Shown here: positions 1,718 through 45,380 of the stretch, piece after piece
Layout: every line of letters begins with the position of its first letter
Position numbering within the stretch: position 1 is the stretch's first letter
Source: Bacteroidota bacterium
GTDB taxonomy: Bacteria > Bacteroidota > Rhodothermia > Rhodothermales > UBA10348
NCBI GenBank assembly: GCA_029262835.1
Contig: JAJCYQ010000073.1
Span: 1-45,380 of the forward strand
DNA: 45,380 bases
Reading direction: 5' to 3'
Notes under the pieces: generated by a model
The model's input: the letters and a program-made list of their open reading frames with translations, nothing else
Database searches by the model: none
What the model was told of the DNA's origin: nothing
Program-made: the position numbers and the translations under genes

Positions 1718-3795
1718 AGCATGGAAATGCCGTCCGGCTCGCCGATCACTGTCAGCCGATCGTCTTTCTCAAGCACGGTGTTTGCACCCGGGACGGCGCT
1801 CTGCGTGCCGCGGCGAATGAGCGCCACGATCGTGCCCGTCGGGAATCCGGCCTCGCGCAGGGGGCGGCCAACAAGTTCGGCTGTCTTGCCGCGTCCGTCG
1901 ATCGTGAGCGTGAAGTAGCGGTCGTGGCGCAGCAGCGTTTCGCGCAGTTCCTGATCGCCGCCGGCCGCCTTCCACTGCTCCAGGAAATCCGTCTCGTCTA
2001 TGCGGCCAGCGATGTTGGCCAGCGTTCGAAGGTGCTTTCCGGGCGGGGTTTCCGGGCTGACAAGAAAGAAAATCGCGTGTACCGGATCCTTCTTCTGATC
2101 GCTCGCCAGGTCAAGGCCGTGTCGGGAGCGGACCATGAGCAGGCGCGGCTCGTCAATGCTTGCAAGGCGCTGATGAGGAAGAGCGGCGCCCTGGCTTACC
2201 GGCGTGAGCCCATAGGCATACCCTTCCATGAAGTTGGCAGCCAATTCCCTGGACGTCAAAGGCACGTGGGGAGCCAGGAGGTCGGAGGCGCGCGCCACGA
2301 TGTCCTCGTAGTCCACGGGTTCGTCCAGGTCGAGTACGATAGCGTCGGTGACGAGCTTTTCGAAGGGCGATTCATCCGTAATACCTTTCTCCTTCAGAAT
2401 GGAGCGCAGTTCGCCGTCAAGGCCCTCGTAACGGTACTGTCCGAGCCGGGCGAACAGGTGGTATATCGCGCCTTCGCGCTCGACCTTGATGTTGTCCCGG
2501 ACGTAATAGCGGTACCAGACGATTCCAAGAAGGACTATTCCGAGACTGACCACGATGGCCAACCACCCCATCTGACTGATGAGAATGAACGGTGTTATGA
2601 CCCCCACGATCTGCACCCACGGATAAAGCGGGCTCCGGTAGCCAGGCACGTACGATGGTATATGGCTTTCGCGCATTACGATCACCGCCACGTTTACGAG
2701 CGAGAATATGAGCAGTTGGAATGCACTGGCCAGTTTGGCGATTCCCTGGACGTCCAGCGCAACGATCACAAAAACCATCAACGCTGACGTAATGACAATG
2801 GCCCGCGTCGGCGTGCCAAAACGACCTATGGTCGCCAGGCGCGGAGTGACCAGATTATCGCGTGCCATGGCGAGCGGATACCGCGAGGCCGACATGATAC
2901 CCGCGTTTCCGGTGGAGGCGAACGCCGCAACGGCCGCAATCACGATGATCAACAGACCGATGGGCGATGGCAGCCAGTCGAAAAAGCTCTCCGCCGCGGT
3001 AGCGACGGGGGTCAGATCACTTCGGAGTTCATTTGCATCCAGAACAGCGACCATGATAAACACGCCCACGACATAGATGAACGTGGCCGTGGCGAGCGAG
3101 AGCATCATGCCGAGCGGAATATTGCGATCCGGGTTACGAACCTCTTCGGCAACGCTCGAGACCTTTGTAAGCCCGGCGTAGGACACGAACACAAGTCCGA
3201 CGGTTGCCAGAAGGCCGCTCGTTCCAAAGGGCGCAAACGGCGTGAACTGACGAGAAAGCGTCTCATTTCCGAGCGAAAAAACTTCCGCGAGTCCCTGCAC
3301 AATGAAGAAGGACAACACGCCGACCATGATGATGACCAGAATGCGTTGCAGTCCACTGGTCTCCTTCGCCCCCATGATATTCAGTGCGGCGAACATTACC
3401 GTAAGCGCCACGGCCAATGGTTTGACGGGTATGTCCACGAAAAACACCAGGTAGGCTCCCATCCCGACGAGCGCAAAGGAGCTTTTCAGTACCAGCGCGA
3501 GCCACGTGCCCATACCTCCGATTGTGCCCGCCATGGGGCCCAGGCTGCGATCCAGGAAATAGTACGTGCCTCCTGCGCGTGGCATGGCCGTACTCAGTTC
3601 GGCCTTCGACAGCATGGCTGGCAGAATCAATATGCCTGCAATCAGATATGCGAGCACGGTGGATGGTCCTGCACTGGCGGTGGCAATCCCGGGCAACAGG
3701 AAAAACCCCGAGCTGAACATGGCACCCGTGCAGATGGCATAGACGTCGAACAGGCGGAGGTCCTTCTTGAGCTTCTCCTTGGGCAGTTTGGGCAT
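1696..3795 (-). CDS. APC-family amino-acid permease with C-terminal EIIA-like and RCK_C domains
   Basis: A 699-residue inner-membrane transporter of the amino acid-polyamine-organocation family. The start is MPKLPKEKLKKDLRLFDVYA at 3795, chosen because it precedes the usual APC helix 1 (AICTGAMFSSGFFLLPG); a longer frame from 3876 reads into low-complexity sequence. About twelve hydrophobic helices fill residues 15-425. Residues about 480-610 resemble a PTS EIIA type-2 domain with a GAALPHQR motif where the phospho-histidine would lie. Residues about 625-695 resemble the TrkA/RCK C-terminal ligand-binding domain (ELVGRPLREAGFPTGTIVALIRRG). The cytoplasmic tail therefore probably senses a nucleotide or a phosphorylation state to gate transport. 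Substrate unknown. It is convergent with the ferredoxin gene. Confidence 0.85.
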   Translation of the reverse strand: MPKLPKEKLKKDLRLFDVYAICTGAMFSSGFFLLPGIATASAGPSTVLAYLIAGILILPAMLSKAELSTAMPRAGGTYYFLDRSLGPMAGTIGGMGTWLALVLKSSFALVGMGAYLVFFVDIPVKPLAVALTVMFAALNIMGAKETSGLQRILVIIMVGVLSFFIVQGLAEVFSLGNETLSRQFTPFAPFGTSGLLATVGLVFVSYAGLTKVSSVAEEVRNPDRNIPLGMMLSLATATFIYVVGVFIMVAVLDANELRSDLTPVATAAESFFDWLPSPIGLLIIVIAAVAAFASTGNAGIMSASRYPLAMARDNLVTPRLATIGRFGTPTRAIVITSALMVFVIVALDVQGIAKLASAFQLLIFSLVNVAVIVMRESHIPSYVPGYRSPLYPWVQIVGVITPFILISQMGWLAIVVSLGIVLLGIVWYRYYVRDNIKVEREGAIYHLFARLGQYRYEGLDGELRSILKEKGITDESPFEKLVTDAIVLDLDEPVDYEDIVARASDLLAPHVPLTSRELAANFMEGYAYGLTPVSQGAALPHQRLASIDEPRLLMVRSRHGLDLASDQKKDPVHAIFFLVSPETPPGKHLRTLANIAGRIDETDFLEQWKAAGGDQELRETLLRHDRYFTLTIDGRGKTAELVGRPLREAGFPTGTIVALIRRGTQSAVPGANTVLEKDDRLTVIGEPDGISMLQERFQG

Positions 3796-6248: not shown

Positions 6249-8619
6249 GATCAGATACACAGGCAGTAAATGGATCCACACGCCGAGAAGGCGCCGGGTG
6301 TTCCTTTGCCTGCTGGTGGCCGGGTGGTTCCTGTCCATGATTTCACCAGCGCTTTCTGGCGCTTCACATACCGTCCGCGCGCAGGAGGTGCCCGATCCAA
6401 CACCGGCCTATACCGTCCGGGGGGTGGTTCGTGACGCCGATTCCGGGGGTACACTTCCCGGTGCCAACGTGATCCTGACCGACAGCCTGGGCCAGGCAGC
6501 GGCCGCGGCTTCCACAGGAGAGGACGGTCGGTACGCGCTGCGCGTCGCGGCGCCGGGACGCTACATCGTTCGCGCCACCTTTATCGGATATGCTGCGCAT
6601 AAGCGCACACTGACGGTCACCACCGAGAACACGACGCACGACATTCGGCTTCGCGCCGTGGCGGCCTTCCTGGACGAAGTAGTAATCGAGATGGCCGCCC
6701 GGAACGAGGAAAATTTCTCTGCGGGGCTCACGCGGGTCGATGCCCAGGACCTGCGGCGCGTCCCTACACCGGACGTGACGTTCGACCTGGCCGGATACCT
6801 TCAGACGCGCCCCGGCGTCGTAACGACGGGAGATCGTGGTGGGGGGCTGTTCATCCGGGGCGGGACGCCCACGCAGAACCTGATACTGCTCGACGGTATG
6901 CCTGTTTTCCAACCGTTCCACATCGTGGGGTTCTTCAGTGCCTTTCCAGCCGACAATATTGCCTGGGCCGATGTATACGCAGGTGGGTTTCCGGCGCAGT
7001 TCGGCGGTCGTATTTCTTCCGTCGTTGATATCACAACACGAAATGGCGATACCAGCGAGTACCAGGCATCGGCGTCCATTGCCCCCTTCCTGAGCGGCGT
7101 GCGCCTTGAAATACCCATGGCACGGGAACGGGCATCGCTCGTCGTGTCGCTCCGCGAATCGGTGATCGACATCGTATCGGAAGACCTGCTCGGCGAGGAC
7201 CTGCCGTTCCGTTTCGGTGACCGCTTTGCCAAATTCCACGGTCATCTGAACAGCACCTCATCGGTAAGCGTGACCATGCTCCAGACGTTCGATGAGGGCA
7301 ACCTGGACAGTTCCGACAGTGAACTCTCCCGCCGGTCGACGTGGAAGAATGATGCCTATGGAGCCCGGTACAGGTACATCCCGCCGGAGTCGGCCGTGAT
7401 GACGGAGATCATGTTCTACTACTCCCGACTCCGGAGTCGATTCCGGGCAACACCGGAGGATCTGCGCACTTCGGACATCGATGACCTGTCCATGAAATTC
7501 GATTTCGTGTACCTGCTCGGGCTTTCTGAAATCCGTTTCGGCATGTTCGGAACGGCCAACTCGTTCAGTTTCGATACCGGACGCAACAACCGGGCAAACA
7601 ACGGGGGCATGTCGAGCGGTGGGATGTTTTTCCAGACGCGTATTGCGCTCTCGGACGCCGTTCGCATTGAGCCGGGCGTGCGTATGGAGGCTTTCTCGCG
7701 CGGCCAGGGGACGTCGCTCTCGCCTCGGCTGAGAGCGTCCTGGCAGGTAGGTGGCGTAGGAGCGCGGCATCGCCTCAGTGCAGCCTGGGGCATGTACAAA
7801 CAGCAACTCGTCGGTCTCACCCGGGAGCAGGATATCTCCGACGTGTTTACGACCTGGACTCCCTCGCCCGATTCGGACCGGGTACCCGGCGCGACGCATC
7901 TCATACTGGGATGGCAGGGCGTGGCGGCGTCCTGGTTGGAGTTTTCGGTGGAGACCTACCGTAAATGGCTGAGCAATATCGCCTGGCCGGTGACGACCAG
8001 TGAACTGAACAGCCTCCCGGCGGCATCGAGGGTCGAGGGAACGGCGGAAGGCGTCGATGTCGGGGTATCCATACGGACGTCCCGGTACGGCGTGGATGTA
8101 GGCTACAGCCTCGCGCGCGTAGAGTACCGGCGCGATGCGCAGTTTTCGCGCAACTTTTTCCCGACAGGGCTGACGGAAACCATCCGCGTTGGTGCGGCCA
8201 CGTTCAATCCGCCACATGACAGGCGCCACCAGATCAACGCCACAGGGCGCTACGAAACGGATGGGTGGGCACTTTCGGCGCGCTGGCAATTCGGAACAGG
8301 CCTGCCCTTCACGCCGCTCAATGGGTTTTTCACGAGCGTTCCGGTGTCCAATCCTCAGTCCTCCACGCACCTGGACGAAGAGGGACGCACCTTCATTTCG
8401 CAGGGCGACCTCTTCACCAGCAGGCAGCCCACCTACCACAGACTCGACCTGACAGCCGAGCGCGTGCTGCGCCGGGCGGCCGCAGATATCACGCTCCAGG
8501 GGGGGCTGATCAACGTATACGACCGCGAAAACCTGTTTGAGTACAGCATATTCAGCGGCAGCCGGATTGACCAGTTGCCCCTTATTCCCACATTCGGTGT
8601 CCGAATTGACCTGCGCTGA
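6247..8619 (+). CDS. TonB-dependent receptor with CarboxypepD_reg-like domain (first of two)
   Basis: A 790-residue outer-membrane receptor. Start MIRYTGSKWIHTPRRRR at 6247 gives a basic n-region followed by a hydrophobic signal (VFLCLLVAGWFLSM). Residues about 55-140 are a carboxypeptidase-regulatory-like beta-sandwich (VRGVVRDADSGGTLPGANV, then GEDGRYALRV, FIGYAAHKRTL). The plug follows with GDRGGGLFIRGGTPTQN, LILLDGMPVFQPFHIVGFFSAFP and YAGGFPAQFGGRISSVVD, then the 22-strand barrel ending FGVRIDLR. It is followed directly by a DUF4249 lipoprotein, the usual partner of this receptor subgroup. The next gene pair (9583-12761) is a paralogous copy. Ligand unknown. Confidence 0.9.
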   Translation: MIRYTGSKWIHTPRRRRVFLCLLVAGWFLSMISPALSGASHTVRAQEVPDPTPAYTVRGVVRDADSGGTLPGANVILTDSLGQAAAAASTGEDGRYALRVAAPGRYIVRATFIGYAAHKRTLTVTTENTTHDIRLRAVAAFLDEVVIEMAARNEENFSAGLTRVDAQDLRRVPTPDVTFDLAGYLQTRPGVVTTGDRGGGLFIRGGTPTQNLILLDGMPVFQPFHIVGFFSAFPADNIAWADVYAGGFPAQFGGRISSVVDITTRNGDTSEYQASASIAPFLSGVRLEIPMARERASLVVSLRESVIDIVSEDLLGEDLPFRFGDRFAKFHGHLNSTSSVSVTMLQTFDEGNLDSSDSELSRRSTWKNDAYGARYRYIPPESAVMTEIMFYYSRLRSRFRATPEDLRTSDIDDLSMKFDFVYLLGLSEIRFGMFGTANSFSFDTGRNNRANNGGMSSGGMFFQTRIALSDAVRIEPGVRMEAFSRGQGTSLSPRLRASWQVGGVGARHRLSAAWGMYKQQLVGLTREQDISDVFTTWTPSPDSDRVPGATHLILGWQGVAASWLEFSVETYRKWLSNIAWPVTTSELNSLPAASRVEGTAEGVDVGVSIRTSRYGVDVGYSLARVEYRRDAQFSRNFFPTGLTETIRVGAATFNPPHDRRHQINATGRYETDGWALSARWQFGTGLPFTPLNGFFTSVPVSNPQSSTHLDEEGRTFISQGDLFTSRQPTYHRLDLTAERVLRRAAADITLQGGLINVYDRENLFEYSIFSGSRIDQLPLIPTFGVRIDLR

Positions 8620-8644
8620 CAACATACCGTGTGCTCCTCGAGGC

Positions 8645-9496
8645 GTGCGTGGCTCCGGTCTGGTAGCACTCTTCGCGCTCGTCGTCGTGCTGGTTCCTGG
8701 CGGCTGCTCCACGAACATCGACCCGTTCACGGAGGCATCCGACGAGCGGTTTGCCGTTACCGGCTTTCTGACCATGCTGGAGGATGTGCAGCGCGTGCGG
8801 GTCGAACAGCTGCGCCGGACGGTAAATGCCGACGAGGTGGACCTGGAGGGGGTCCGCGTCATATCCATTCACGAGGAAAGCGGTTCGCGACAGACATGGG
8901 AGGTGGCCGCCGATCAGCCGGATGACATCCAGGGACTGGTCTATGAAGCCCGGTTCCGGCCTTTCCCTGGGACGTACAGGCTCGAAGTTGGACGTGCTGC
9001 GACGGAAAATCCGCTCATCGCCCGAACAACGTTTCCGAGCGCACCCTCCGTTCAGGTAGGGAGCACGGTGGGTGTGGGCGCGGGCACCCAGGTGCCACTC
9101 CGACTGTTGGGCGTGGCCGACACGCCGGTTGAGCTGGGTCTGCGCTACACCGTCCTTCTACCGGGAGCTTCCGGAGGCACAGGGCCTGAACGCGAGTTCG
9201 ACATCCGATACGGCCAGGCCGGAGACGCTGTCTCCAACGGCTGGGAATTCCTTGTTTTTGTTCGCAATGATCACAGGATCATGCTGCGCGAATCTGGACT
9301 TCGGGTCGATGCCGATTCGCTTACACTCGTCGGCACGGCTGTGATCGCGGATCTGGCAAGCCGGGAGTGGAGCGATCCGGAGGCCGTCGATATCCGCAAT
9401 GGCGAAGGTTTTTTTGCTTCCGTGGCCCGCTATATCCTGCCCTGGGACCCTCCGCGCCAACCGTTTGAGACAGGTGGGTACAAATTTTTACCCTGA
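8645..9496 (+). CDS. DUF4249-type lipoprotein (partner of first receptor)
   Basis: A 283-residue lipoprotein predicted to sit on the outer membrane with its upstream TonB receptor. No ATG lies between the receptor stop and the signal peptide; GTG at 8645 yields MRGSGLVALFALVVVLVPGGC, with lipobox VPGGC. After the Cys, STNIDPFTEASDERFAVTGFL resembles the DUF4249 opening (C..E.DP...E..YVVEG.L). The middle holds VARAATENPLIARTTFPSAPSV-like strands, and it ends WDPPRQPFETGGYKFLP. An in-frame start at 8537 would overlap the receptor by 83 bases and spoil the signal. Role inferred only from pairing: ligand capture or plug of the receptor. Confidence 0.75.
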   Translation: MRGSGLVALFALVVVLVPGGCSTNIDPFTEASDERFAVTGFLTMLEDVQRVRVEQLRRTVNADEVDLEGVRVISIHEESGSRQTWEVAADQPDDIQGLVYEARFRPFPGTYRLEVGRAATENPLIARTTFPSAPSVQVGSTVGVGAGTQVPLRLLGVADTPVELGLRYTVLLPGASGGTGPEREFDIRYGQAGDAVSNGWEFLVFVRNDHRIMLRESGLRVDADSLTLVGTAVIADLASREWSDPEAVDIRNGEGFFASVARYILPWDPPRQPFETGGYKFLP

Positions 9497-35035: not shown

Positions 35036-35701
35036 ATGCGCCTAATTCTCAAATTATCACCGAATACAAAGCCAGTTCCGTTTGATCACCTACACCAGCT
35101 CACTGGGACAATTCATAAATGGCTGGGTGACAATGACTTGCATGACGGATTAAGTCTCTACAGCTTTGGCTGGCTGCGCCATGCAGTGCCGCAGAAAAAC
35201 TATCTCATGTTTCCACACGGCGCCACTTGGCGCATAAGCTTTCATGACACGGAGGCGACGAAGGTGCTGCTTGATAGGATTTTGCGTGATCCTGGCGTGG
35301 CGTATGGTATGCGTGTCCTCGAAGTAAAGGAGCCAGCCATGCCCACCTTCAATGGACATTTCCGCTTCTTAGCGGACGGTCCCATCATTGCGCGAATGAA
35401 GCGGGACGACGGTAGCCGAAAATATCTACTCTGGGACGATGTGAAGGCTGATGCGGTATTGACACATGTACTGCGCAGCAAGTTGGCAATGGCTGGACTT
35501 GCTGGGAAAGATATGGATGTGACCGTTGAATTCGACCGCACCTATTCAAAAGCCCGTAGCAAACTTGCAAAAATTAAAGGAATCGCCCACAAGGGGAGCG
35601 AGTGTCCAGTCTTAGTCACAGGTACACCGGCTGCTGTGCGTTTCGCGTGGCATGTTGGGGTCGGTGAACTGACCGGAAGTGGATTTGGTGCGCTGCAATA
35701 A
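35036..35701 (+). CDS. cas6: CRISPR pre-crRNA endoribonuclease Cas6
   Basis: A 221-residue RAMP protein that cuts pre-crRNA within each repeat and usually stays on the 3' handle. Start MRLILKLSPNTKPVPFDHLH. The N-terminal ferredoxin fold has HQLTGTIHKWLG, where H27 is a candidate catalytic residue. The C-terminus carries the glycine-rich loop GVGELTGSGFGAL, typical of Cas6. Base composition here is visibly richer in A+T than in the flanking chromosome, in keeping with transfer. It is followed by a 90-base A+T-rich gap before cas5. Confidence 0.9.
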   Translation: MRLILKLSPNTKPVPFDHLHQLTGTIHKWLGDNDLHDGLSLYSFGWLRHAVPQKNYLMFPHGATWRISFHDTEATKVLLDRILRDPGVAYGMRVLEVKEPAMPTFNGHFRFLADGPIIARMKRDDGSRKYLLWDDVKADAVLTHVLRSKLAMAGLAGKDMDVTVEFDRTYSKARSKLAKIKGIAHKGSECPVLVTGTPAAVRFAWHVGVGELTGSGFGALQ

Positions 35702-35791: not shown

Positions 35792-36358
35792 ATGAGTGAT
35801 TTAATCTATACCGTTCGTTATACGGGAGCGTTTGGATTTATCAAACCTTGGACAGCTGTACGCGATGGGGAGACATATAGTCAACAGTTCCTGACGCCGA
35901 GCATAGTTGAAGGAATGCGGCAGAAGTTAGAAGTATCTTGCATAGTGCGACACAGGCTGTCGCATCAGGGGTTCGATAAACAACTCGAGCGTATTCAGTC
36001 AGGAGGCTGGAGCAAGAATGTACGTGATAAAAAAATGACGCGGGAATTGTCCATTCTGCATCGAGGTGTGTTGCTGCATCCAGTACTTCACCTTGCCTTC
36101 GTCACAAAAGAGGAAGCACTGCATGCAGCCGATCAGCATCTCTGTTTGTGTCGCAATGAGGATGTTGTGATGCCTCAGGAAGTCGAGCGAACTTCAATAG
36201 ATGCCTTCGATGAAATCCCAGGGTTTGAATTGTGTTTTGGCAAAGAGCGCCCAGGCGCTTTCCTCGTTGGCTATAACCGATTTGACGAAGGGCGCCCGAT
36301 GTATGGCACACTCACCGTCGCTGGCAATCCAACGGAAATCCCGCCCCTGGAACGATGA
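35792..36358 (+). CDS. cas5: Cas5 (PGING-type, Cascade subunit)
   Basis: A 188-residue RAMP protein that caps the 5' handle of crRNA in Cascade. The opening YTVRYTGAFGFIKPWTAVRD, then SQQFLTPSIVEGMRQKLEV is the Cas5 pattern (a strand with Gly-Phe-Ile, Arg, then S-x-x-x-LTPS-x-x-G). It ends GRPMYGTLTVAGNPTEIPPLER. It overlaps the cas3 start by 4 bases (ATGA). The sequence and gene order fit the Cas5p family of the PGING subtype as I remember it. Confidence 0.83.
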   Translation: MSDLIYTVRYTGAFGFIKPWTAVRDGETYSQQFLTPSIVEGMRQKLEVSCIVRHRLSHQGFDKQLERIQSGGWSKNVRDKKMTRELSILHRGVLLHPVLHLAFVTKEEALHAADQHLCLCRNEDVVMPQEVERTSIDAFDEIPGFELCFGKERPGAFLVGYNRFDEGRPMYGTLTVAGNPTEIPPLER

Positions 36359-38595
36359 CGTTGCTGGCAAAAAGCGAAAAACAAGGCGGATTGCTGCTCC
36401 ATGAGCATACCCGGCACGTAGTCGAAGCCATTGAACCAATGGCAAAAGCCTATGGCTTTGATGCCGAACTCGCCCGGAAGGGTGCCATTATTCATGACCT
36501 GGGGAAGGGGCACCCGGCATTTCAGGCCATGCTAATCGAAAAACCGAAGGAACGGCAGGAAGAATGGCTCGCACAGTTGCCTGCAGCGGGGGCCATTAGA
36601 AAGGAACTCTTTTACCGCGCCGACGGACGCAATCTGTTTCACCGCCACGAACTCTCATCGCTGCTTTTTCTGCCGCTTTTCCCGAAGGATGAATGGCCGG
36701 TGTTCATCGACATGGTCGTCGCGCATCACAAGTCAGTCGTGTCTGATGGGCGGCGGCTTGGATTATTGGATCTGGTGGAAGATGGCGATCTGGATGAGGT
36801 ATTCGAGCGGCACGCCGAAGCCTGGAATGATTGGTCGCCGGAGGCGCTCGGGATAGCAACTCAACTTGGCATTGATACGCAAGCGGTATCCTTGGAAGAA
36901 GCCTGCAAAGCATTTCAGTTCGCATACACGTATGCACGAGCAAAGCCAGACGGTTGGTCGCGTTGGCGTGGACTGCTCATGGGAGCCGACCACTTTGCCT
37001 CGGCCTATATGCACGAGACCATATCGCAAACCTCCGGTCTGTTCCAAGTACCAGACCTGACCTTCTACGATGAGCGGGCCCAATCTCCGCGAGCATATCT
37101 GTACCCGTTGACGAAAGTACGCACTAATTATGAATCAACTCACACGCTGGTCACGGCACCAACAGGGGCTGGGAAAACTGATTTCCTGATGCGTCGCTGC
37201 CAAGGGCGTGTGTTCTACACCTTGCCGTTTCAGGCTTCTATCAATGCCATGTATCGACGCATCGCCGAGGCGCTGCCTGAGGCGGATGTGCGCCGGCTTC
37301 ATTCGGCGTCACGACTGGAAATGGAAGATGAAGCAGAAGAAGACGTCGAGTTGCAGCGGCATCCGGGGGCCAGTGTCAAGGTAATGACTCCGCATCAGCT
37401 TGCCGCTATCGTTTTCGGCACACCCGGACATGAGGCCACAGCGCTGGACCTTGCCGGGAATGATGTGATTCTAGACGAGGTTCACACTTACGACGCGCTG
37501 GCGCGAGCGATGGTGGTTCAAATCGTGCGAACTCTTACCCGGCTCGGCTGTCGTGTCCACATCGGTACAGCTACGATTCCGACTGCTCTTGCTGATAAGC
37601 TCGTCGCTGTGCTGGGCGGGCCGAAACAGGTCTATCAGGTTCGCCTTGACGACGCAACGCTGGCTTCTTTCAACCGACATAACGTGCATAAGCTGCCCGA
37701 CGAGATGGCGGCGCGGGAGGTGATCGCAGAGGCTCTCGCGGCAGGCGAGCATGTCCTGTTCATTTCAAACCGAGTGGATGCGGCACAGGATCGGTTTCGA
37801 TGGGTCAAAGACACTTTCGGGGATGAGGTGTCCGCTCTTCTTATTCACAGTCGTTTCAAGAGAGGAGAGCGCAAAAAATTGGAAGAACAGGTTGAGGATT
37901 TTCAGCGGTTCGACGGCCCCTGCATTGTCTGTGCCACCCAGGTCATTGAGGTCAGCCTGGATATATCATTCGACCGTATGGTAACTGATGCTGCCCCGCT
38001 GGATAGCCTCGTTCAACGCTTCGGACGTATCAACCGCATCCGGGACACAACGACCCTCGGACAACTCAAATCTGTACATGTCATCGCGCCGCCAGAAGAA
38101 GACGGAGCTATTAAGCCCTACGATTCTGCCGAGGTCCGTGCCAGCTTCGCGGTGCTGCCTGATGGCGAGGTGCTGGATGAGCGCACCATCCAGCAACGCA
38201 TCGACACCGTGTTTCCCAATGTTGAGATTTCCGACGTAGCAATCCACTTCATTATGCAGGAGGAGGGCACCTACCGGATCAAGGAACTCCAGCATAACAA
38301 ACGATCTGTGATTATAGAAGCCCTCGATATTGACTCCGCAACGTGTATTCTCTACTCAGACGCCGAACGCTACAAAAAGGCGCGGTGGGATAACCGTGTG
38401 GCAATAGAAATCCCCGTTTCGCATCGGTTGCGCTACCGGCTCCGTGTCTTTGGTGAACCGCTGCCTTTTGGTTCTTACCCGTATGTGATCCCGGATGAGC
38501 ATTACCACCCGGATGGGGTGCCGTTGGGCCTCGTCGTTCCCTCATCGACTCCGCAGCCTGACACATCGACTTCCTTCAATCAACGAGCGCTGTAG
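36355..38595 (+). CDS. cas3: Cas3 nuclease-helicase
   Basis: A 746-residue fusion of HD nuclease and superfamily 2 helicase that unwinds and degrades target DNA after Cascade binding. HD residues: H16/H18, H47-D48 (IIHDLGKGHPAF), H124-H125 (VVAHHKS). Helicase: Walker A APTGAGKT (K274), DEVH box (D374-H377), TAT motif in IGTATIPTAL, and motif V/VI CATQVIEVSLDISFDRM, PLDSLVQRFGRINR. All catalytic motifs look intact and the length is normal. It is translationally coupled to cas5. Confidence 0.95.
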   Translation: MTLLAKSEKQGGLLLHEHTRHVVEAIEPMAKAYGFDAELARKGAIIHDLGKGHPAFQAMLIEKPKERQEEWLAQLPAAGAIRKELFYRADGRNLFHRHELSSLLFLPLFPKDEWPVFIDMVVAHHKSVVSDGRRLGLLDLVEDGDLDEVFERHAEAWNDWSPEALGIATQLGIDTQAVSLEEACKAFQFAYTYARAKPDGWSRWRGLLMGADHFASAYMHETISQTSGLFQVPDLTFYDERAQSPRAYLYPLTKVRTNYESTHTLVTAPTGAGKTDFLMRRCQGRVFYTLPFQASINAMYRRIAEALPEADVRRLHSASRLEMEDEAEEDVELQRHPGASVKVMTPHQLAAIVFGTPGHEATALDLAGNDVILDEVHTYDALARAMVVQIVRTLTRLGCRVHIGTATIPTALADKLVAVLGGPKQVYQVRLDDATLASFNRHNVHKLPDEMAAREVIAEALAAGEHVLFISNRVDAAQDRFRWVKDTFGDEVSALLIHSRFKRGERKKLEEQVEDFQRFDGPCIVCATQVIEVSLDISFDRMVTDAAPLDSLVQRFGRINRIRDTTTLGQLKSVHVIAPPEEDGAIKPYDSAEVRASFAVLPDGEVLDERTIQQRIDTVFPNVEISDVAIHFIMQEEGTYRIKELQHNKRSVIIEALDIDSATCILYSDAERYKKARWDNRVAIEIPVSHRLRYRLRVFGEPLPFGSYPYVIPDEHYHPDGVPLGLVVPSSTPQPDTSTSFNQRAL

Positions 38596-38635
38596 CAACG
38601 AGCGACCGCGTGCTGTTAAACCATCCTTGATATAC

Positions 38636-39961
38636 ATGTACACCGCATACATTGGTCGCCGCCTGCTTGAGCTCTATAACGAGCATCGCCACGACGGCCC
38701 GCCGCTAACGCCACGTCAGTTTTTCGACGAGGTCTTCTTTTCACTTGTTTTCGACGACGAGCGGTACCTGATGCTGGCGAATAACTCCAAATTTGATCAG
38801 ATCGCTAAGCAGAAAAAACACAAAGATCCTTCGGCACGTCGGATGGCATTGGCCTTGTTCCACGAAGATACCAGCACGTTGAATGAACCTCATGGACATC
38901 TATACCTCGGTGGGATGGCTCGTGGCGTTGAAGCGGCCACGTCCAGCCAGGTAACCGATGTAGTTATCCCCGTTTCACCGGATGAGGTATATCTCTCTTG
39001 GATAGGAGCAGCAGCGGGCATCGGTGTGAAAGGCGGATTGTCGATGCTGGTGGATTCCGATGCGGTAGTGCTGGCGCTTTATGATGGCTGGCTTCAGTAT
39101 CGTGCTTATATGACGCAACTGGAGACGTTAAAACCATACCAGATTGAGACATGGAATGGGTGGTGGCTTATTCATCGCTTCGGAGCAACGTACCGTGAAG
39201 ACGACCCGCTACGAGATTTTCCAAATGGCGAACAGGACGAGCCGGGAAAGAACAATAAAGGTCAACATGCCTTCGGAACGCCACCCTGGATACAGGTCAT
39301 TTTCGCCCTGGCCCGGCAAGAAGCTGCCGTTACCCAGATTAGCTATGTCTACTCGTTCGGTCAGACCAACACCACCATCGGCTTCATCCGCCTTGACCTG
39401 CCTGAAGTAAACCGGTTGCCGGTCTTGTATCAACGGCTTTTCGGGCAGCACGACCGACACGACCGGGACAACCTGGAAGCGATGTATGAGACGCAATTCG
39501 GGTTTGCCACCGCCTGCCAGCAGGGTGCCATCGGGCTGCACGCCATTGAGCCGAAGAATCTCCGCAAGTACATGCCTGTTCGGCGTGACCCTGGCACGTT
39601 GCCTAAGACGCCGAAAAAGGATACCGACGACATCACTTTCAAAATCTACCAGACCTGGATCATTGCCATGCTCAATAACGACGACCTCCTGCGGCAGGCA
39701 CAACAAGCCGCCGAAGCCCTCCATGACTTCTCAAAGCAAGCCAAGCGAGGTAAAAAGACCCACAAATCACTTGTCAATGACACGCTCGCTGCCGGAAGCA
39801 GCCGAGCGTTTGTGGAAGCCCTTACCCCGATTCTGGAAGAAGACGGCACGCATAAAGCATTGCTGAACGAACTTGTCCACAGCATCGTGAAGATGCCAGC
39901 GAGTAGCGTGCCGCTCTTTCTGGCGCTACTGCGCTTCAAATACGCCTATGTCTCCGCCTGA
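38636..39961 (+). CDS. cas8: Cas8 large Cascade subunit (Csp2-like)
   Basis: A 441-residue protein starting MYTAYIGRRLLELYNEHRHD. The N-terminal LTPRQFFDEVFFSLVFDDERYLM and the position between cas3 and cas7 point to the Cascade large subunit that reads the PAM. I match it to the Cas8c/Csp2 family of the PGING subtype from memory (GHLYLGGMARGVEAATSSQ, WIGAAAGIGVKGGLSMLVD). The family has no simple motif. A longer frame from 38495 overlaps cas3 and reads basic shadow sequence. It sits 40 bases after cas3. Confidence 0.8.
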   Translation: MYTAYIGRRLLELYNEHRHDGPPLTPRQFFDEVFFSLVFDDERYLMLANNSKFDQIAKQKKHKDPSARRMALALFHEDTSTLNEPHGHLYLGGMARGVEAATSSQVTDVVIPVSPDEVYLSWIGAAAGIGVKGGLSMLVDSDAVVLALYDGWLQYRAYMTQLETLKPYQIETWNGWWLIHRFGATYREDDPLRDFPNGEQDEPGKNNKGQHAFGTPPWIQVIFALARQEAAVTQISYVYSFGQTNTTIGFIRLDLPEVNRLPVLYQRLFGQHDRHDRDNLEAMYETQFGFATACQQGAIGLHAIEPKNLRKYMPVRRDPGTLPKTPKKDTDDITFKIYQTWIIAMLNNDDLLRQAQQAAEALHDFSKQAKRGKKTHKSLVNDTLAAGSSRAFVEALTPILEEDGTHKALLNELVHSIVKMPASSVPLFLALLRFKYAYVSA

Positions 39962-39991: not shown

Positions 39992-41062
39992 ATGAAACCG
40001 TATCTATACCTTCGCGGTCTTCGTCAAGTCGATCACACCGTTTTCTGCGTCGAAAACGGACAGAAAACGTACTGGGATCCACAGTTTGGAACGCCGATGC
40101 CGTACTCCAGTGGCCAACAGGTGAAACGCTCTATTCTTGATACTCTGGTGGAAGTTATGCCGGACGAAGAGCGAGCACCTATCACGTTTACGTATGAGTT
40201 AAGTGCAGGTCGTGGTGGGAATGACGAACTAAGCCAGAAAGAGCCGTGGAATCCCTGTGATCCTGCGTATGCCGATCAACTCATAGGTGGCTGGATGCGG
40301 GCGCAATCCAATACCCTGACCATAAAGCGACGAAGCCCACTTTCCATCTCGGCAATGCGTCCGTTACATCCTACCTTGGCAGGGACCAGCAAGGAGAGTC
40401 TCACTTTTGATCGGAGCGAGGATCCTGATCATCACCCCGTGGAGGTTCGGAATGCGGCTGGTGAAAAGCTATCTTCGGACGAAGTCGATGCCTTCCTGCA
40501 ATCGAACGCCCGTGCGCTGCCGCGTCGGCACTGGATTCCAAAAGACAAGGTTGGACCACGGGCCGAGGGACTCTTCGTTTTCGACGTCGCCATCGACCTG
40601 CGGCGGCTGTTCAAGGTGTCAATGAACCAGCATGATCCGGAGTTGGAGCCGGAAAGGATTGAGGTATTAAAAGCCGCTGGTTGGCAGAAAAGCGCTGATG
40701 ACCTTTCGCTGACCTGTCCCAAAGAACGGCGGGACGAAATTATCCCCGCATTGGCCCACGCTCTTGTCAACTGGCGCGTGACGAGCAATCAGAGCCGTAC
40801 TTACAGTCCACAAACTACCCTGGCACTTGCTCTGTCCGATAACGCCAATCGACTCGCTAACATTATCCGCGCCGACCTTCGTGAGGACACAACCAATCCT
40901 AAAGCTGATCCGGTCCTGGACGAGAATGTCGACGGTGCCGACCTCTTTGTTTCACTGACAGCGAAAGGCTATGTATCTGGTGTAACCGGCGATGCCAATG
41001 CGATGGATGCAGCAGAGACGGCGTTGCGAAGTCGCCTTGCCGCTTTCAATTACGACGCATAA
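39992..41062 (+). CDS. cas7: Cas7 backbone subunit (Csp1-like)
   Basis: A 356-residue RAMP protein expected to polymerise along the crRNA spacer. The start MKPYLYLRGLRQVDHTVFCV is characteristic of the Csp1 family of the PGING subtype, as I remember it, and PLSISAMRPLHPTLAG in the middle is Cas7-like. The C-terminus (TAKGYVSGVTGDANAMDAAE) is variable. It lies 29 bases after cas8 and 8 bases before cas4. Confidence 0.82.
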   Translation: MKPYLYLRGLRQVDHTVFCVENGQKTYWDPQFGTPMPYSSGQQVKRSILDTLVEVMPDEERAPITFTYELSAGRGGNDELSQKEPWNPCDPAYADQLIGGWMRAQSNTLTIKRRSPLSISAMRPLHPTLAGTSKESLTFDRSEDPDHHPVEVRNAAGEKLSSDEVDAFLQSNARALPRRHWIPKDKVGPRAEGLFVFDVAIDLRRLFKVSMNQHDPELEPERIEVLKAAGWQKSADDLSLTCPKERRDEIIPALAHALVNWRVTSNQSRTYSPQTTLALALSDNANRLANIIRADLREDTTNPKADPVLDENVDGADLFVSLTAKGYVSGVTGDANAMDAAETALRSRLAAFNYDA

Positions 41063-41070
41063 ACGTCACG

Positions 41071-41637
41071 ATGGCCTCGACGACAAAGACGGCTGTAACC
41101 AATGTCCGCATCGGCGGTATGCTTGTAGGGTATTACCTGATCTGCCAACGCAAGGCCTGGCTCTCTATGCATGGTCTTTGGATGGAGCAGGAGTCCGAGA
41201 GTGTGGCAGTCGGGCGAATTATTGATCATAACAGCTACGCACGGAACAAAAAGGGTATGATGTTGACGGCTGAAGCCCCAGACGGCTCCTGCTTGGTCGG
41301 TCAGATCGACTGGGCCAACCTGCGTGAAGGTGTTCTACACGAGGTCAAAAAGGGCCGTTCATGCGAAGACGCACATGTTTGGCAGTTGCGCTTCTATCTG
41401 TGGCTCCTGAAGCGTTGCGGCGTCGTACGGGTCAATGGCTCAGCGATGCGCGGCCAGATCGACTATCCGAAGCTGCGTCGCACGGAGCCGGTTACTTTGA
41501 TGCCCGAACATGAGTCCCGCCTGGCCGAGATTGTTACTGCCCTGCGTACTCTGGCTGGTCAAGAGAAGCCGCCGCCTCGAATTGAGCGTAGAGCATTCTG
41601 CCGCCGGTGTGCCTTCGAGGAACTCTGCTACGGCTAA
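41071..41637 (+). CDS. cas4: Cas4 RecB-like nuclease
   Basis: A 188-residue Fe-S nuclease that trims prespacers and selects PAMs during spacer capture with Cas1-Cas2. One cluster cysteine is C25 (YYLICQRKAWL) and three are at the end (C177, C180, C186 in FCRRCAFEELC). The RecB-type active site shows GQIDWA, EVKKG and QLRFYLWLL. Complete and normal in length. The 74 bases after its stop carry the repeat-like hairpin described separately. Confidence 0.93.
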   Translation: MASTTKTAVTNVRIGGMLVGYYLICQRKAWLSMHGLWMEQESESVAVGRIIDHNSYARNKKGMMLTAEAPDGSCLVGQIDWANLREGVLHEVKKGRSCEDAHVWQLRFYLWLLKRCGVVRVNGSAMRGQIDYPKLRRTEPVTLMPEHESRLAEIVTALRTLAGQEKPPPRIERRAFCRRCAFEELCYG

Positions 41638-41657
41638 ACAGCGCTGCGAATACTCGC

Positions 41658-41687
41658 TTTTCAATTGCACCGCGTCGGTATTAAACA
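41658..41687 (+). ncRNA. Degenerate CRISPR-repeat-like hairpin in the cas4-cas1 gap
   Basis: The plus strand reads TCAATTGCACC, GCGTC, GGTATTAAAC. The locus repeat reads TCAATCGCACC, TGCT, GGTATTGAAAG. The left block matches in 10 of 11 bases, GGTATT is identical, and the one extra base lies between them. Folded, the repeat pairs TCAAT with ATTGA and ACC with GGT around a 4-base loop; here ACC/GGT is kept, four of five outer pairs are kept and the insertion falls in the loop. It lies 25 bases before the cas1 start. It could be recognised by Cas6 and yield a guide-like RNA of the CreA/CreR type, or be an array relic. Confidence 0.5.
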
Positions 41688-41711
41688 CGTCACTTTCGTC
41701 TGTTAAGTCCG

Positions 41712-42794
41712 ATGCGTCGAGCATTTTATATTTTCTCCAACGGCCGTCTGCGTCGCCGCCAAAACACGCTCTATCTCGAGCGTGCTACCGACGCCCGCAC
41801 CCCCGATGATGAGGCCGAAGACACCGGTGCCCCCAGCGGCGAACCAGTTGGTGACAGGGTGCCTTTTCCCGTCGAGCAGGTCGAGAGCCTCTACGTCTTC
41901 GGAGAGCTGGATATCAACACGAAGCTGGTCACGTTCTTGGCGCAGCATCACATCCCTGTTTTCTTTTTCGACTACTATGGGAACTATACGGCAACGCTCT
42001 ACCCCAGAGACTATCTGCTGTCCGGTCATCTGACCGTCAAACAGGTTCAGCATTATCTGAGTCGCAAGCGGCGGCTGAGACTGGCCCAGGAGTTCGTGGA
42101 CGCCGCCACGTACAATATCGGTCGGGTGCTCAAGTATTACATTCCCCGCCTATCACCGGATATGGCTCATCCGGTGTTGGCAGCCGTCCAGCTGATTGAG
42201 AAGGAGCGATCCCGCCTGGAAAGCGTTGCGGCAATTCCAGAGCTGATGGGCCTGGAGGGGCGCTGCCGGGAAGCCTATTATCGGACGTGGCCATCGTTGC
42301 TCGGAGAGCATGGGGAACGATTCCCGTTCGAACGTCGGGACCGTCATCCACCGTCGAATGAGTTGAACGCGCTCATCAGTTTTGGCAACGCGCTCTGTTA
42401 CAGTGCGGTGCTGCGCCAGCTCTATCGCACGGCCCTTGACCCGACGGTGTCGTTCCTGCACGAGCCTGGATACCGACGCTTCTCTCTTGCACTCGACCTG
42501 GCTGAGGTGTTCAAACCACTGCTTGTCGACCGGGCCATCTTCCGTCTAATCAAGACTGGCGCCATAACACCGAAGCACTTCGAACCGCGCCTGGGCGGGG
42601 TCTACCTGAAAGACACCGGGCGAAAGATATTCGTCGAGCACTGGGACGAACGGCTGCGCCAGACCATCAAGCACCGCCGCCTGAACCGGCAAATCAGCTA
42701 TGAGCGACTCGTCAGGCTGGAGTGTCATAAGCTGACGCGACACCTGTGCGACCCGAAACATGACGCCTACCTGAGCTTCAAGATGTGGTGGTAA
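41712..42794 (+). CDS. cas1: Cas1 integrase (type I-B-like)
   Basis: A 360-residue spacer integrase. Start MRRAFYIFSNGRLRRRQNTL, typical of the I-B lineage. The N-terminal beta domain (VESLYVFGELDINTKLVTFL, IPVFFFDYYGNYTATLYPRD) is followed by the helical catalytic domain with E182 (LMGLEGRCREAYY), H250 (SFLHEPGYRRFSLALDLAEV), D262 and E265. All are in place, so it should be active with cas2. Gaps of 74 bases before and 72 after it are longer than elsewhere in the operon. Confidence 0.95.
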   Translation: MRRAFYIFSNGRLRRRQNTLYLERATDARTPDDEAEDTGAPSGEPVGDRVPFPVEQVESLYVFGELDINTKLVTFLAQHHIPVFFFDYYGNYTATLYPRDYLLSGHLTVKQVQHYLSRKRRLRLAQEFVDAATYNIGRVLKYYIPRLSPDMAHPVLAAVQLIEKERSRLESVAAIPELMGLEGRCREAYYRTWPSLLGEHGERFPFERRDRHPPSNELNALISFGNALCYSAVLRQLYRTALDPTVSFLHEPGYRRFSLALDLAEVFKPLLVDRAIFRLIKTGAITPKHFEPRLGGVYLKDTGRKIFVEHWDERLRQTIKHRRLNRQISYERLVRLECHKLTRHLCDPKHDAYLSFKMWW

Positions 42795-42866: not shown

Positions 42867-43133
42867 ATGCCCTACTACATCGCCGTATACGATATCAACG
42901 TGAAGCGAGGATCGAAGATGCTGAAACTCTTCCGGCGCTATCTGACTTGGGTGCAGAACTCGGTCTTCGAGGGCGAGATGACGATGGCGCAGTTCCAGGA
43001 ACTGCAGATCGAGGCACAACATTTGATGGAAGTTGACGAGGATAGTGTAATTTTCTACGAAATGCGAGATGAGCGCTATACAGAGCGCACGGTGCTTGGC
43101 AGCGAGTTTGGGAAACGGAGCCGGTTCCTCTGA
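42867..43133 (+). CDS. cas2: Cas2
   Basis: An 88-residue ferredoxin-fold protein that bridges two Cas1 dimers. Start MPYYIAVYDINVKRGSKMLK, with the conserved Asp9 after the first strand, then RYLTWVQNSVFEGEMTMAQF and a C-terminal strand ending GKRSRFL. A frame from GTG 42816 adds 17 non-conserved residues and is not favoured. It is the last cas gene; the leader begins right after it. Confidence 0.94.
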   Translation: MPYYIAVYDINVKRGSKMLKLFRRYLTWVQNSVFEGEMTMAQFQELQIEAQHLMEVDEDSVIFYEMRDERYTERTVLGSEFGKRSRFL

Positions 43134-43357: not shown

Positions 43358-45380
43358 GCCTCAATCGCACCTGCTGGTATTGAAAGGCCAGACTCGCAAG
43401 GTGAACGGCATGCGCCGCGCCGCCTCAATCGCACCTGCTGGTATTGAAAGCCGCCCAATGCTCCGGGACATAGCCCTATGATTCCGTGCCTCAATCGCAC
43501 CTGCTGGTATTGAAAGGATTCATTGCATCCAGCCTTGCACTTGGCAATCCTAGCCTCAATCGCACCTGCTGGTATTGAAAGGCTTGCACCACAGCCAGAT
43601 GAGATCGAAGCCCTCGGGCCTCAATCGCACCTGCTGGTATTGAAAGGTATCAGCAGGGTCCTCACTGGACCTGCCATCCTTGGCCTCAATCGCACCTGCT
43701 GGTATTGAAAGGAAAGACGGTTACTCAGCCCGCCGTCACGCGCGATGCCTCAATCGCACCTGCTGGTATTGAAAGTCATCAGCGGATCGTAATCAAAAAA
43801 GGGGAACACCAGCCTCAATCGCACCTGCTGGTATTGAAAGCTGCAGCCGCTCATTTCGCCGATGTGATATCAGAAGGCCTCAATCGCACCTGCTGGTATT
43901 GAAAGTCGCGGCAGATCAGCGAGGAGGCGCAGGCGGTGCACGGCCTCAATCGCACCTGCTGGTATTGAAAGGGCGAAAGGGGAGACTCACGGCGCACCGG
44001 GGCCTGGCCTCAATCGCACCTGCTGGTATTGAAAGGACGCGATCGCGCGAGGGACCTGCAGGAATGGGCGCAGGCCTCAATCGCACCTGCTGGTATTGAA
44101 AGCCCTGCAGGCCACGCACTGCCGCCCGGGACGCGTCGCCTCAATCGCACCTGCTGGTATTGAAAGCTGGCACCGACAACAGTACGGACGTTACGCTTGC
44201 TGGGCCTCAATCGCACCTGCTGGTATTGAAAGTCGTGGTCGGCGTCTGAAACACTCCGTCCTGCGCCCGCCTCAATCGCACCTGCTGGTATTGAAAGCAG
44301 TAAACGACCTCGCCACGCGGGACCTTGATCTTGGCCTCAATCGCACCTGCTGGTATTGAAAGGACGGCACGTTCGTCATGGTAGACATAGACCACATCGC
44401 CTCAATCGCACCTGCTGGTATTGAAAGGAAGAAAGTTGCCGGGTTGAGGGGCGAAATCAGGAAAGCCTCAATCGCACCTGCTGGTATTGAAAGGACTTTA
44501 TGATTTGAAACGACCGCGCTACGCCATCCAGCCTCAATCGCACCTGCTGGTATTGAAAGTTGTTGGTGCGCTCGCTACGGCTGGCTACGAGGGCACGCCT
44601 CAATCGCACCTGCTGGTATTGAAAGTCATGATCAAGGATGCATATGTAGGCGGAGCCTTCGCCTCAATCGCACCTGCTGGTATTGAAAGTAGATCTACCC
44701 CAAGGTCGGACGCGGCTGCGAACATGCCTCAATCGCACCTGCTGGTATTGAAAGGAAGAAGGTCGACAGCGTGCGCCTTCGTGCGTCCGGAGGCCTCAAT
44801 CGCACCTGCTGGTATTGAAAGTCCATCCTGACGCGGCCCGTGTCAAATATCCTCACCCCGCCTCAATCGCACCTGCTGGTATTGAAAGTAGCCCACACAG
44901 TACCGCCTGTGCTCTGCCACGTCCGCCTCAATCGCACCTGCTGGTATTGAAAGTTGTCGCGTCGTAATTGGGCGCCACGTACTCGGTGGGCCTCAATCGC
45001 ACCTGCTGGTATTGAAAGTGTACTTCGACGACAGGTCGGAAATGAACATAGAGCAGCCTCAATCGCACCTGCTGGTATTGAAAGGCTTTACAGACCTTTT
45101 CGGCGGATTCGCTCTCCCGGCCTCAATCGCACCTGCTGGTATTGAAAGGACGTATGATGAGATACTGGCAGACCTGCCACCGGGCCTCAATCGCACCTGC
45201 TGGTATTGAAAGTTGCGCAGGACGTAGCCAGGCAGGTCAACAGGTTCGTGCCTCAATCGCACCTGCTGGTATTGAAAGTTCTCGCGCTCACCTTTGTCGT
45301 GCATCGCATCGTGGCCTCAATCGCACCTGCTGGTATTGAAAGTCAAAGGCCAGCGTGTGAATCACAAGATGTGTCGGGGC
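43358..45380 (+). CRISPR. CRISPR array, 31 repeats visible, continuing beyond the window
   Basis: Thirty-one apparently identical 29-base repeats (first half GCCTCAATCGCACC, then TGCT, ending GGTATTGAAAG) start at 43358 and the last complete one ends at 45342. Spacers are 35-38 bases and all 30 complete ones are different. The repeat folds weakly (TCAAT with ATTGA; ACC with GGT) and ends ATTGAAAG, an 8-base 3' handle as in I-B systems. Bases 45343-45380 look like spacer 31, so the array goes on. No repeat decay is seen, which fits an active and growing array, with new units expected next to the leader. No spacer was seen to match the rest of the window by eye. Confidence 0.98.

Follow-up and report, generated by a model that had tools for sequence, protein, structure and literature searches.

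The 45,380-nucleotide stretch of DNA analysed here (referred to as the window) carries a CRISPR-Cas locus whose genes all lie on the plus strand, in the order cas6-cas5-cas3-cas8-cas7-cas4-cas1-cas2, with an array of 29-nt repeats downstream. The effector genes are cas6 (35036–35701, where the match to the Cas6b family begins at residue 23 of a longer open reading frame), cas5b (35792–36358), cas3 (36355–38595), cas8b, which encodes the large subunit (38618–39961), and cas7b (39992–41062), and the adaptation genes are cas4 (41071–41637), cas1b (41712–42794), and cas2 (42867–43133). PADLOC models called Cas5b, Cas7b, Cas8b, Cas1b, Cas2b, and Cas6b, and the locus is therefore assigned to type I-B. 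An earlier, sequence-only reading had referred it to a PGING-type system, which is at odds with these calls and with an NCBIfam search of the locus proteins, in which no PGING match was found. The array (43358–45342, plus strand; repeat GCCTCAATCGCACCTGCTGGTATTGAAAG) has 31 repeats in view and reaches the contig end. A second run of 30 repeats, the last of which is not degenerate, lies on another contig (G000:C57:22-1946) and probably represents the other end of the window's array, which is interrupted by the edge of its contig.

Within the cas operon, one ectopic degenerate CRISPR repeat (TTTTCAATTGCACCGCGTCGGTATTAAACA) lies at 41658–41687 on the plus strand; with one 3' base taken as deleted, its end is at 41686. 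Its core letters are TCAATTGCACC-GCGTC-GGTATTAAAC at 41661–41686, and it stands alone in the 74-bp gap between the end of cas4 (41637) and the start of cas1 (41712); in letters, place, and strand, the sequence-only reading of this degenerate repeat was confirmed throughout. On its 3' side is a spacer-like segment (41688–41711, plus strand) that runs into the cas1 start and for which no target was found. Across the whole genome, the pattern TCAATYGCACC-N3-7-GGTATTRAA is confined to this element and the two contigs that carry arrays.

The repeats of related loci are mostly 30 nt long, and the repeat of the window's own array is 29 nt long. The element aligns without a gap to the 30-nt family repeats, and its identity to those of Botryobacter and Rufibacter is 22/30 by the covariance-model path and 21/30 ungapped, as compared to 19/30 and 18/30, respectively, for the 29-nt repeat of its own array. 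A closer resemblance to the repeats of other genomes than to those of the adjacent array is expected of an old copy, or of a copy from a different array. The sequence-only reading had described an indel in the loop; one is indeed seen against the window's own repeat, but relative to the family the indel sits in that 29-nt repeat and not in the element. The changes in the element relative to the family are in the loop and in columns 26, 29, and 30, such that the 5' half is kept and the handle ATTGAAA has become ATTAAAC (altered handle ATTAAACA).

The extent to which this resemblance exceeds chance depends on the measure used. A position weight matrix of 18 relatives' repeats, from which the window's own repeat was excluded, gave the element 16.6 bits without an indel, as against 3.3 bits for the second-ranked site of the window. 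Simulated DNA (50 Mb) reached the element's score 0.08 times per Mb, and the expected number of chance matches is about 0.007 in the window (both strands) and about 6e-6 in the gap. A covariance model (cmsearch) ranked the element first in the 9.3-kb cas region (14.2 bits, E 0.026), although it was not significant genome-wide (E 9.7). One site on contig C84 scored higher in the genome-wide covariance search; it matches as two halves with a long insertion, lies inside an open frame, and was judged to be a chance match. Plain, indel-tolerant local alignment proved too weak as a significance test over 43 kb: the score of 13 against the window's own repeat was equalled elsewhere in the window (on the reverse strand) and in shuffles over 43 kb, and 5/3000 shuffles of the gap reached it. 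The equal plain scores and the genome-wide covariance-model E-value are what could be said for a chance resemblance, which is nevertheless extremely unlikely given the matrix score and its expectation in gap and window, and given that the element sits within the cas operon in the same orientation as the array. The element is repeat-derived.

A repeat copy need not come from an array at the same place. Off-target Cas1-Cas2 activity, or recombination with a different I-B array, might have placed it in the gap, and the closer similarity to repeats of the Rufibacter and Botryobacter type would agree with such an origin. However, the element has neither a duplicated flank nor a second repeat, and the adjoining segment has no significant phage match (E about 7), which makes placement of this kind quite unlikely. 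Solitary repeat units and Racr RNA anti-CRISPRs have been described in viral genomes, away from cas genes (PMC10651486). The element is likewise one solitary repeat, but it is not viral and lies within a cas operon, in a locus with a complete set of genes; viral contigs contained no copy of the exact element pattern and no Cas1 relatives.

The sequence-only reading attributed a conserved hairpin to the element. The repeat hairpin can still be drawn in it, with six of the seven drawable pairs surviving and one lost. However, minimum-energy folding predicts a different small hairpin, which is no better than those of shuffled sequences (z +0.46). When the element is folded in context, base pairs are predicted between its loop (CGCGUCGG) and the start of cas1 (CCGAUGCG), at a z-score that is also not significant (-1.3). 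Because the predicted folds differ and neither z-score is significant, "conserved hairpin" is an overstatement, and the hairpin is absent at this place in relatives. The loop letters CGCGTCGG (41671–41678) are complementary to CCGATGCG (41709–41716) over the cas1 start codon, in a fold that is itself not significant. In haloarchaeal I-B systems, a search for a hairpin shared by the repeats gave none, and the RNA recognised by Cas6 is believed to be unstructured (PMC9458426).

Conservation was assessed in the cas4-cas1 gaps of 31 other loci, with one locus present twice, once from each of two collections; 24 have a gap of more than 30 bp, and no close relative is among them. A repeat-like element was found in 0/31 of these gaps, with best matrix scores that were all negative except for one at 1.5 bits, so that the conservation in relatives that the sequence-only reading had named as a check did not emerge in this set. 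One repeat-like site in the cas4-cas1 gap of locus L129 was rejected, as it lies inside an open frame and is negative by the family matrix. The same-genus and same-family genomes examined had no related cas1, and an array between cas4 and cas1 was present in no relative examined.

Ectopic repeats in cas operons are taken as hints of regulatory RNAs. The sequence-only reading had proposed a CreA/CreR RNA with its spacer-like part from about 41688: Cas6 would free a handle from the element together with a guide starting at 41688, and this guide would direct Cascade to a promoter without cutting. The element resembles such crRNA-like RNAs in being an ectopic, degenerate repeat within the cas locus of a type I-B system (PMC8501985, PMC9458426, PMC12737573), and it too stands 5' of a spacer-like segment. 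Moreover, H. hispanica has a one-repeat creA in its cas6-cas8 intergenic region (PMC8501985). In known creA genes, degenerate repeats come as a pair, or a single repeat is combined with a terminator; for the creA that has been characterised in detail, the match to the target covers positions 1–5 and 7–11, adjoining a PAM (PMC8501985). The element differs from these RNAs in lacking a second repeat, a terminator, and a promoter target. Specifically, no second convincing repeat-like site was found in the window by the matrix or in the genome by the covariance model, and no terminator-like site was found in the cas4-cas1 gap. The first 20 nt of the spacer-like segment had no match elsewhere in the genome at three or fewer mismatches, and upstream of cas6 its best seed match does not exceed 6 nt. 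A guide at this position would, in addition, extend over the start of cas1. The spacers of the array were also considered as guides to the cas operon and were rejected, as their best scores were near those of shuffled spacers and none had a seed at the cas6 promoter. Together with the lack of conservation, these results leave a CreA/CreR-like RNA highly unlikely at this locus.

A different picture was obtained in one relative, G089. Its cas region (L088, G089:C1:319015-334091) has a divergent two-repeat mini-array at about 1850–1917 (minus strand), which lies upstream of cas6 and is accompanied by a terminator-like hairpin. In the cas6 upstream region, at 2067 (minus strand), 17/20 positions agree with the mini-array spacer (ATGGTTCTGCAGGCCAATAGG), with an 11-nt seed, as compared to the seed of at most 6 nt for the window's segment. 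By its sequence, this mini-array is a good candidate for a CreR-like regulatory RNA. Such a find in a relative lends the guide-RNA explanation some weight, and it also indicates that the guide-RNA test is able to give a positive result in this type I-B family. CreR-like pairs upstream of cas6 were sought in other relatives as well, but their repeat scores were negative and only that of G089 was convincing.

The same genome has a solo degenerate repeat in its cas operon (L088 8891–8920, plus strand), 3 nt after the cas7 stop. The 3' flank of this repeat, including the trailer (GTAACGTCCCAGGGCACTGGGAC) with its hairpin, is approximately a copy of the end of that genome's own array, and the solo repeat is therefore an array end. 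A third such array end lies downstream (L088 12757, plus strand) and consists of a degenerate repeat and a diverged copy of the trailer. The solo repeat and mini-array of G089 and the element of the window are all repeat-derived, lie in or beside a cas operon, and belong to the same type I-B family. They differ in that the G089 solo repeat is a recognisable copy of an array end, and in that the G089 mini-array combines two repeats with a terminator-like hairpin and has its target upstream of cas6. Arrays are also found near the boundary between effector and adaptation genes in other relatives. For instance, in S. ruber pSR66 (L140, NZ_CP030366.1) two arrays flank the adaptation genes, one between cas7 and cas4 (7676–8907) and one after cas2 (12669–about 14040), and these have similar leaders and slightly different repeats. 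Similarly, an array lies just upstream of cas4 in G069, and directly 3' of cas7 in G402 and G075.

The position of the element could alternatively reflect a cis-acting Cas6 site, in which Cas6 would bind or cut the polycistronic cas mRNA and thereby uncouple cas1-cas2 from the effector genes, or tune cas1 translation. The element is on the sense strand within the cas operon and near the effector/adaptation boundary, its 5' half matches the family, where nt 2–8 of the repeat are the reported primary Cas6 binding site (PMC9458426), and its loop can pair with the cas1 start in context. None of these features favours a Cas6 site specifically, however, and nt 2–3 of the element differ from those of the window's own array repeat, the handle is altered, and the fold in context is not significant. 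Furthermore, the 31 other cas4-cas1 gaps (with no close relative among them) hold no counterpart, and the sole analogous solo repeat, that of G089, is a copy of an array end. A site acting on the mRNA in this way is therefore considered unlikely. Somewhat less likely still is the specific proposal that a natural cis-acting Cas6 processing or binding site in the cas mRNA separates cas1-cas2 from the effector genes, with the demand of crRNAs for Cas6 tuning spacer acquisition. If there were such a site, crRNA load would be coupled to spacer acquisition.

By analogy with these relatives, the element is probably a relic, left by an array that lay at or near the boundary between effector and adaptation genes, an origin that the sequence-only reading had listed as an alternative and that is now the best supported. 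An array or array end at the boundary of the effector (cas6-5-3-8-7) and adaptation (cas4-1-2) genes would have been lost or rearranged, leaving behind one decayed repeat that need have no present role. The course would be the same as in the relatives but one gene further downstream, after cas4 and not after cas7. With neither a partner repeat nor a target, and with nothing corresponding to it at this position in relatives, the element is most likely an array leftover and not a regulatory RNA. Among the leader-distal repeats of 22 arrays, the final 8 nt carried 42 mismatches, as compared to 40 over the first 21–22 nt, and thus the decay of such repeats sits at the 3' end. Like the degenerate terminal repeats at the leader-distal end of type I-B arrays, and like remnants of such arrays, the element is a single repeat near cas genes and in array orientation, with the 5' part kept and the 3' handle decayed. 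It is significantly similar to the family repeats, and its changes are likewise concentrated towards the 3' end, although they are few and carry little weight on their own. In contrast to those terminal repeats, the element has no adjoining array or trailer and sits between cas4 and cas1. No trailer or leader similarity was found adjoining it; its 3' flank is unlike the end of the window's own array, whereas the G089 solo repeat does have such similarity. Since this flank differs and the cas4-cas1 interval is free of arrays in all relatives examined, the case for a relic here is one of analogy. More generally, a statistically solid ectopic repeat may carry no other mark of a regulatory RNA, and array ends left at the effector/adaptation boundary produce the same picture as the repeats of regulatory RNAs.

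One further observation concerns the 5' flank of the element, which follows cas4 (41638–41657, plus strand) and carries a near-palindrome (GCGAATACTCGC). By eye, the form GCGA(A/G)TACTCGC is seen just 3' of the cas4 stop both in the window (41646–41657) and in S. ruber pSR66 (L140 10034–10045, GCGAGTACTCGC).
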